From: Bacteroidales bacterium
GTDB taxonomy: Bacteria; Bacteroidota; Bacteroidia; Bacteroidales; UBA3663
NCBI GenBank assembly: GCA_024694125.1
Contig: JAILKE010000036.1
Span: 1 to 64,000 of the forward strand
Length of the DNA stretch: 64,000 nucleotides
Reading direction: 5' to 3'
Shown: in pieces, positions 11,394-45,659 of the stretch
How the letters are laid out: each line of letters starts with the position of its first letter
How positions within the stretch are numbered: position 1 is the stretch's first letter
Notes under the pieces: model-generated
Database searches by the model: none
What the model was told of the DNA's origin: nothing
Seen by the model: the letters and a program-made list of their open reading frames with translations, nothing else
Made by a program: the position numbers and the translations under genes

Positions 11394-11406
11394 CGGTCGA
11401 AAAAAT

Positions 11407-11490
11407 AACTCGGGGTGCTGAGGCCAGCGGGCCGAAGCTGAGATTATACCCATAGAACCTGATGCGGGTAATGCCGTCGTAGGAAGAAGC
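11407..11490 (+). ncRNA. TPP (THI element) riboswitch
   Basis: GGGGTGCT...GCTGAGATTATACCC...GAACCTGATGCGGGTAATGCCGTCGTAGGAA matches the TPP aptamer core; directly upstream of thi genes. Confidence 0.97.
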
Positions 11491-11537
11491 AAGCGCCACT
11501 TTATGTGGGTGCGTATTATATGAAAGGTATAGCCACT

Positions 11538-43331: not shown

Positions 43332-43784
43332 ATGAAAAAGGTTATGTTGATTGCAATGGCTCTTATCTCGTTGAGCATTGCTGATGTAAAGGCCGAAGGC
43401 GTAAAGAACGGTAATGATACCGTTAAAGGTATTGAGAACAATAATGTAGTAGAGGAAACTCAGGTGAATGCTGACTCCGTGATCTATAAGTTCCATATCC
43501 GCCTTCGCGACATGTACAAAGCTATGAAGCTGGACGTCGATCAGGTTGAGGAGCTCCGTTTCGCTAACAACGCAATGAGCCGCAACATCGCAAGACTGGC
43601 TCATGTTGATGCTGAGGATCGTCAGGAGAAACTCTCTACCATCTTGGCTCAGAATCTGGCTACCGTACATGAAATTGTTGACGAGGAGCAATATCGTGCT
43701 TACCTCTATCTGTTGAACAATGAGTTCAATAAGACTGGTTTGAACACCATCCTGTACGGCTACGAAGCTCTTGCAGCGAAGTAA
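43332..43784 (+). CDS. small secreted helical protein (paralogue 1)
   Basis: Signal peptide MKKVMLIAMALISLSIADVKAEG; homologous to 45210-45659. Confidence 0.85.
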   Translation: MKKVMLIAMALISLSIADVKAEGVKNGNDTVKGIENNNVVEETQVNADSVIYKFHIRLRDMYKAMKLDVDQVEELRFANNAMSRNIARLAHVDAEDRQEKLSTILAQNLATVHEIVDEEQYRAYLYLLNNEFNKTGLNTILYGYEALAAK

Positions 43785-43845: not shown

Positions 43846-43997
43846 TTGCCTGTTCACGTTCCGTGGATAGGCCTTTAATTTATACCAAATCCCTCAGTTA
43901 TTGTTATTGTTTTCGTTTCCGTCCGAAGTTTATTTTTTTTTGTTTGTTTCCGTCCGAAGTTTTTTTTCGTTTTCGTTATCGTTTTGGTACGAAGTTT

Positions 43998-44202
43998 ATT
44001 CTCCATTAATTGAAATCAATATACATTAATTCAGTCAGTTGTAGGGTATTCTCCATTAATCAACATTAATATACATTAATATACATTAATTCAGTCAGTT
44101 GGGGGAATATTCTCCATTAATTGAAATTAATATACATTAATTCAGTCAGTTGTTGGGTATTCTCCATTAATCAACATTAATATACATTAATTCAGTCAGT
44201 TG
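43998..44202. repeat. about 50-bp repeat ATTCTCCATTAAT(T/C)...ATACATTAATTCAGTCAGTTG x4
   Basis: Four tandem copies read directly. Confidence 0.95.
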
Positions 44203-44297
44203 ATGGGGTATTTTTCTTTTTTTTAATTGGATTCAATTCAGTTTATTCGAGGAACCATTAACCCTTATCCTTAAATTCTACCCTTTTAAGTTTGGCA

Positions 44298-44626
44298 GCA
44301 CGCCGAAGGTGTGCGAGAATACAGGCGGGGGTTTTTAACCCCCGCTCTCGATGAAGAGAGCGCAGGAGATTGTATCGGCACGCCGAAGGTGTGCTAAGAG
44401 TATAAAGGGGGCAACGCCCCCGGTGCGAACGTTATGTCAGCAGACATGGTGTGTTGGGTGTGTCTGTTGACCTGTTATGTGCCCGACATTATGTATCTGC
44501 GTTACGGGGACTTACGCCCCCTAAAAATTCTGTCGCACCTTCGGCGCTTGATACAATATACTGCCTGCTACTGTGGATAGCGGGGGCTTACGCCCTCGCC
44601 TGTATTCCCGCGGACCTTCGGCCCGC
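44298..44626. other. inverted pair of composite multi-hairpin elements
   Basis: Hairpins and linkers GAATACAGGC / ATTGTATC appear in mirrored order in both halves. Confidence 0.8.
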
Positions 44627-45011
44627 TGACTCAATTAACTACGAACGAAACAAACTTCGTACTAAAACGATAACGAAAACGAAAAACTCCCCTAAACTCT
44701 GAAACAAACTTCGTACTAAAACGATAACGAAAACGAAACAACTCTCTTACGCTCCTTTCTCTCTGCGAGATATAAATTTGTACGATTACTCTCATAATCC
44801 GTTTAAATCTTGTTCAATCCGTTCAATCTGTGTTCTTTTATTCGATCTGTTCGATCGGCGTTCTTTATCCAATATGGTGTCGCTTAGTGGCTAAATATCC
44901 TAATTTGCCTATGATTATGGACCTTTGACGATGTAATAACTGCTTAATTGACTACTATATATGACAAAATTTATTCAAAAACGCCCAAAAAACAAGAAAA
45001 TCTGCGCAAAC

Positions 45012-45209: not shown

Positions 45210-45659
45210 ATGAAAAAGGTTATGTTAGTTTTCGCAATGTCTGCCATGATAATGGCAGTTGCAACAGTTAAGGCTGAAGGTGCAGTTGAGCGTATCGCTA
45301 ATGACGCTGACAAGGTAGCTGTAGTAGAGGAGGACATGCAGAATGCTGACTCCGTGAACTATAAGATCCGCCTGCGCCTCCGCGACTTGAACAAGGTAAT
45401 GCGTCTCGATGCCGAGCAGGTCGAGAGCCTGCAGTTCACCTGCAGCGACTTGAGCCGTCGTGTATCACGCCTGCAGAAGGCTCCAGCTGACGAGCGTCAG
45501 GCTCTTCTCTCGGTTATCGTAGCAGAGAACCTCGCAGCTGTTCACGAACTGGTTACTCCAGCACAGTATCGTCAGTATCTCGCATACTTGAACCAGGAGT
45601 TCGTCAAGAACGGTCTGAACTCGGTACTCTTCAGCGACAATATGTTGGCCGATAAGTAA
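45210..45659 (+). CDS. small secreted helical protein (paralogue 2)
   Basis: MKKVMLVFAMSAMIMAVATVKAEG; homologous to 43332-43784. Confidence 0.88.
   Translation: MKKVMLVFAMSAMIMAVATVKAEGAVERIANDADKVAVVEEDMQNADSVNYKIRLRLRDLNKVMRLDAEQVESLQFTCSDLSRRVSRLQKAPADERQALLSVIVAENLAAVHELVTPAQYRQYLAYLNQEFVKNGLNSVLFSDNMLADK

Follow-up and report, generated by a model that had tools for sequence, protein, structure and literature searches.

The window analyzed here, a stretch of 64,000 nucleotides from a Bacteroidales metagenome assembly (2.97 Mb, 102 contigs, 79% complete; G000 below), contains two closely spaced clusters of hairpins that mirror each other, raising the question of what such a structure is and what maintains it. 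A sequence-only reading had left two answers open, a non-coding mobile element of the REP/BIME or MITE type and a structured RNA. The nearest named relatives of the genome are uncultured Bacteroidales such as RUG12191 and Candidatus Liminaster caballi, with 81% and 79% identity, respectively, for one neighbouring protein.

Structure and surroundings of the hairpin pair

Positions 44289-44633 form an inverted pair of ~135-bp units, each possessing hairpins A, B and C and a variable hairpin D. The module order is a leader AGTTNGGCA, hairpin A with a GAA loop, a linker GNGAATACAG, the G/C-rich hairpin B of 7-8 pairs, a variable spacer, TTGTATC, hairpin C, again with a GAA loop, ANAGAA, and the variable hairpin D. 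The hairpins named in the sequence-only reading were all located at the coordinates it gave, and the features of the pair are as follows.

44289..44426, plus strand: unit 1, forward A-B-C-D module including the conserved leader AGTTTGGCA / AGTTAGGCA (nhmmer, 99 bits against a 38-copy unit model)
44298..44314, plus strand: hairpin A, GCACGCC-GAA-GGTGTGC (cells 100% paired in 34 copies; two pairs changed on both sides)
44315..44324, plus strand: linker GAGAATACAG between A and B, conserved and unpaired (the same linker as AAGAATACAG/AAGATTACAG in another species, G012)
44325..44345, plus strand: hairpin B, GCGGGGG..CCCCCGC (sequence and alignment of copies)
44370..44376, plus strand: conserved TTGTATC preceding hairpin C (copy alignment)
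44378..44394, plus strand: hairpin C, a repeat of A with GAA loop (sequence, repeat search and copy alignment)
44407..44421, plus strand: hairpin D, GGGGGC-AAC-GCCCCC, the variable part (many other copies have GGTATATTTGCC..GGCAAATATACC at D)
44422..44499, no strand: central spacer between the units, with an imperfect stem 44437-44446 / 44461-44470 (sequence and folding)
44500..44633, minus strand: unit 2, same module as unit 1 (nhmmer, 122 bits)
44506..44521, minus strand: hairpin D' (sequence)
44535..44547, minus strand: hairpin C', GAA loop on the minus strand (sequence)
44580..44599, minus strand: hairpin B' (sequence)
44600..44607, minus strand: linker GAATACAG, read on the minus strand (sequence and copy alignment)
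44610..44626, minus strand: hairpin A' (sequence)

The proposal of an inverted pair of composite elements was borne out by two calculations: a mechanical inverted-repeat search recovered the inverted arms (I3: 46 nt, 78% complementary), and as single-stranded DNA the segment 44286-44640 folded far beyond its shuffled versions on either strand (z -8.6 and -9.3; 0/100 shuffles as good). The leader AGTTAGGCA preceding hairpin A could be part of the element.

As had been read from the sequence, the pair is located between two paralogous genes (43332-43784 and 45210-45659), which encode small, secreted-looking proteins of ~150 aa. In two relatives (L060 and L062) the flanking paralogue is present once, which places the repeat pair between genes that arose by duplication; these orthologous loci offer no clean empty site, and neither an empty site nor an excised circle was seen. 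The modules flanking the pair on the outside, CGAAAACGATAACG...TTCGTAC (CGTTTTCGTTATCGTTTT-GTACGAAGTT; 43909-44000 and 44647-44738), are real, but they constitute a separate dispersed repeat, for which 62 matches were counted in G000, most of them distant from hairpin units. The CGAAAACG modules were therefore rejected as part of the hairpin element; the supposed nested palindrome of 840 bp consists of two adjacent repeat families. An A+T-rich tandem array of about 4 copies of a ~50-bp unit (TATTCTCCATTAAT..ATTCAGTCAGTTG) occupies 43997-44212, and similar sequence adjoins another copy of the hairpin unit (L011, near 203-247). Elsewhere in the window, a TPP riboswitch is located at 11401-11504 (RF00059, 56.9 bits).

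Unit copies and the Y1 transposase gene of the genome

The paired-hairpin arrangement is not due to chance: BLAST returned 87 matches to the unit in G000, which a profile resolves into about 46 strong unit copies. Several of these are at contig ends, so that the true copy number is probably higher. Placement is mostly intergenic (12 convergent, 17 tandem, 3 divergent and 14 at edges); 7 of the ~46 units overlap an open reading frame of at least 110 aa, and those reading frames are probably spurious. Single units predominate over pairs. Further copies and covariation were among the checks that the sequence-only reading had proposed, and the stems also covary: in 34 aligned copies six pairs changed on both sides, giving a score of 0.167 compared to 0.086 +/- 0.007 for shuffled alignments (0/500 shuffles as high), and the signal was lost when partners were slid along the alignment (0.006-0.077). 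The compensatory changes comprise G-C to A-T and G-C to C-G in hairpin A, C-G to T-A in B, and G-C to A-T in C.

Three of the inverted pairs (L011, L015 and L018) are copies of one ~400-bp element, the similarity of which largely ends just outside GGCAGC..GCTGCC; L011 and L015 share ~50 bp of further similarity on one side. Because these whole-pair copies share their edges, pairs appear to travel as a unit, and it is from copy number together with such shared pairs that we infer movement. Hairpin D exists in two unrelated versions that have replaced each other as a whole, GGGGGCGTAAGTCCCC and GGTATATTTGCC..GGCAAATATACC. Among L009-L042, A-B-C stays the same and the D position has one or the other version, as though the inner end could be exchanged, and three inverted pairs combine one unit with each D type. 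In the left flanks of L010 and L011 the leader motif (AGTTAGGCAGC; GTTTGGCAATA) is tandemly repeated just outside the unit, which may be the mark of a target site or of slippage at the element edge.

The sequence-only reading had also suggested looking elsewhere in the genome for a Y1 transposase. A search of G000 with PF01797 (Y1_Tnp) identified exactly one gene (match C17:10553-10894, E 2.3e-17), a 151-aa open reading frame at C17:10538-10990, and this gene is close to units of the same family. An inverted pair of full units is located ~480 bp upstream, and a partial unit (model positions 30-87, E 1.7e-8; B to TTGTATCG) begins ~12 bp past the stop codon. This single partial unit is directly adjacent to the gene, which lacks the canonical symmetric flanks (z -0.2) described below for its relatives. 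The same PF01797 search of the 79%-complete assembly found no class 2 (Y---NP) transposase; another transposase could be missing from the assembly.

The encoded protein carries the motifs DHIH, WQ and YILHQFEHH (Y---Q--HH), and its HuH residues and Y-Q-HH are invariant in five genus members. By these motifs, its length and its phylum distribution it belongs to TnpA-Y1 subclass 1.2, which is defined by DH[IV]H, WQ and Y---Q--HH, a length of about 148 aa and occurrence in Bacteroidetes (Quentin et al. 2018, PMC6006769). In that study the subclass belongs to class 1, occurs in Bacteroidetes and Cyanobacteria at low copy number and shows no IS properties, and the table given there lists no REP sequences for it. 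A profile built from the five members matches IS608-type transposases of known structure (ISHp608 TnpA and relatives, PDB), and the protein scored below the NCBIfam cut-offs for both IS200 (41 bits, cut-off 55) and REP_Tyr_transpos (20 bits, cut-off 80).

Layout of gene and hairpins in relatives

Plain BLAST of the G000 unit returned almost nothing in relatives because the stems are species-specific, and the link emerged only via the transposase gene. In four members of the same genus (G012, G008, G011 and G006) the subclass-1.2 gene is invariably located between inverted multi-hairpin modules of the same order and different stem sequences. G012, which has the linker AAGAATACAG/AAGATTACAG in common with G000, yielded 23 matches, many as tail-to-tail inverted pairs; in G008 the gene is present and few copies were detectable with the G012 query. 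The transposase locus is orthologous in G012 and G008, with the same neighbouring genes, suggesting a resident gene. The exact A-B pattern was matched 32 times in G000, 12 times in G012 and once each in G007 and G003; eleven other genus members and the reversed-pattern control gave no match. Copy-number surveys cover four species, and dispersed copies are present in at least three genomes.

Of 247 Bacteroidales genomes, 140 have a subclass-1.2-like gene according to a profile search. The two gene flanks resembled each other in inverted orientation (z > 5) at 24 of 28 scored Bacteroidales loci, which, as the best matches to a one-genus profile, lean to closer relatives yet span many families, and at none of 53 control genes. 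The arrangement is present across many genera. Perfect G+C-rich hairpins numbered 2.7 and 3.0 per 250-bp flank, as against 0.27 and 0.29 in shuffled sequence and 0.47 and 0.41 in control flanks, an excess of ~10-fold and six- to seven-fold, respectively. Loops in the upstream flanks were GAA in 27 cases and TTC in 4, and downstream TTC in 22 and GAA in 8; the predominance of GAA on the upstream side and of TTC on the downstream side makes the flanks mirror images, and module polarity can be read from the strand that carries GAA. Typical spacing is A -95 to -125, B -70 to -97 and C -28 to -53 upstream, and C' +3 to +17, B' +39 to +57 and A' +70 to +88 downstream. The layout recurs outside the order, on the Persicobacter plasmid CP012861.1 (Cytophagales; z 12.6; A/B/C at -121/-95/-52 and C'/B'/A' at +4/+42/+74), and a gene on a Bernardetia plasmid has inverted flanks (z 11.3) from which perfect hairpins are absent. 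One specific A-B pattern was detected in 16 of the 247 genomes, and the gene is present in 15 of these 16 compared to 125 of the 231 genomes without the pattern (Fisher p = 0.001); the spacing between the two hairpins is 16 or 17 bases in nearly all matches, though 8-30 were permitted.

Proposed mechanism, alternatives and known systems

We consider it likely that the feature is a non-autonomous, mobile REPIN-like repeat and that its units serve as cognate ends for the one subclass-1.2 TnpA-Y1 (HuH tyrosine) transposase of the genome. The mobile-element option of the sequence-only reading gains from the ~46 copies, the stem covariation and the one Y1 transposase gene beside an inverted pair. 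Given the association of gene and units, the latter are probably mobilised by the subclass-1.2 TnpA as single-stranded DNA. When a strand becomes single, for example as lagging-strand template, the units would fold into the A-B-C hairpins, as in IS608 and TnpA-REP. On one of the strands, a TnpA dimer would then read the unpaired linkers together with the hairpins that have GAA loops, the tyrosine would cut at the outer edges, and the excised single strand would be re-joined elsewhere, by which copies could spread to intergenic DNA. Recognition, cleavage and its sites, and transposition by TnpA are modelled here on related enzymes: in E. coli, TnpA-REP recognition is strand-specific and cleavage occurs at the hairpin foot (PMC8266576), and REP doublets have been proposed as the replicating unit (PMC3116915). 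By the same analogy the folded A-B-C strand would be the substrate, and the linkers are candidate guide sequences because a GT[AG]G foot is absent.

An ordinary autonomous IS of the IS200/IS605 family with internal-deletion (MITE-like) derivatives, in which the A-B-C modules are the IS ends and the gene-bearing copy still jumps, is the strongest alternative, and we regard it as unlikely. Some genomes do have several subclass-1.2 genes (up to 10 matches), the modules box the gene like IS ends, whole-pair copies exist, and the protein profile hits PDB entries of ISHp608 TnpA and related enzymes. However, one gene copy stands against ~46 unit copies in G000, the orthologous locus in G012 and G008 points to a resident gene, the two ends of IS608-type elements do not repeat each other in inverted orientation, the protein is below the IS200 cut-off, and the subclass has been reported with low copy number and no IS properties (Quentin et al., PMC6006769).

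It is considerably less probable that the hairpins act as RNA, as a structured RNA, a bidirectional transcription terminator or an mRNA stabiliser. The convergent and tandem intergenic placement and weakly T-rich tails after hairpins B and D on the minus strand would suit such a role, which could also be a secondary effect of the repeats. An Rfam search of the window matched only a tRNA and the TPP riboswitch, with no family at the hairpin region, and the RNA option of the sequence-only reading received no positive support; moreover, an inverted pair puts hairpins equally on both strands, and the transposase linkage across genera would be left unexplained. A passive intergenic repeat (a nucleoid-protein site or a recombination-spread sequence) that neighbours a transposase by chance is hardly credible, since the linkage at 24 of 28 loci versus 0 of 53 control genes rules out chance adjacency, even if other dispersed and tandem repeats occupy the same intergenic regions.

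The preferred reading, a REPIN-like repeat with a cognate transposase, can be placed among known systems. REPs in the strict sense are single imperfect palindromes of 20-40 nt with GT[AG]G at the 5' hairpin foot and many, mostly extragenic copies. The units share the many extragenic copies, but each is ~105-135 bp long with hairpins A, B, C and D, and the feet are GGCA (A), ACAG (B) and ATCG/TCGA (C). As in BIMEs and REPINs, there are inverted doublets able to form a single long hairpin, namely the window pair, L011, L015 and L018, and the G012 pairs. IS200/IS605 elements have no terminal inverted repeats, their left and right ends are dissimilar, and they insert 3' to a fixed short target without duplication. 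The present system resembles IS608 and ISDra2 in its HuH/Y1 transposase fold, as judged by profile, and in its hairpin ends, and differs in that the ends are composite and inverted copies of each other (24/28 loci) and in having few gene copies and many non-coding ones. With TnpA-REP subclass 2.6 of Bacteroidetes ('atypical secondary structures') it has in common the phylum and repeats without a GTAG foot; that enzyme is of another class (YIH[QN]NP), and such a gene was not found in G000. In organization the system resembles REPtrons (REP/BIME/REPIN with TnpA-REP, or RAYT): the palindromes are dispersed and intergenic, form inverted doublets, have species-specific sequences and are linked to a Y1 HuH transposase gene that is present once and has repeats on its flanks. 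The differences are three or four hairpins per unit rather than one of 20-40 nt, and an enzyme of class 1 (Y---Q--HH; YILHQFEHH), not class 2 (Y---NP).

For subclass 1.2 itself, inverted A-B-C modules flank almost every locus examined, in contrast to the lack of REP sequences in the earlier survey (PMC6006769), and no earlier description of these repeats was found in the open-access literature, including a full-text search for the hairpin letters. The evidence leans, with some reserve, towards subclass-1.2 TnpA-Y1 being a separate Bacteroidota-wide system that maintains repeats composed of three hairpins each (A-linker-B-spacer-C, the recognised strand carrying the GAA triloops) and not GTAG-footed REPs; REPtron-like systems would hence have had a second origin, within class 1, and would use another recognition code. 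These enzymes are common in gut and environmental Bacteroidota and previously had no assigned substrate. Cognate repeats would provide a directly testable one, would explain a large class of hairpin-rich intergenic repeats in Bacteroidota genomes, and would offer an independent case for comparing DNA choice among domesticated single-strand transposases.
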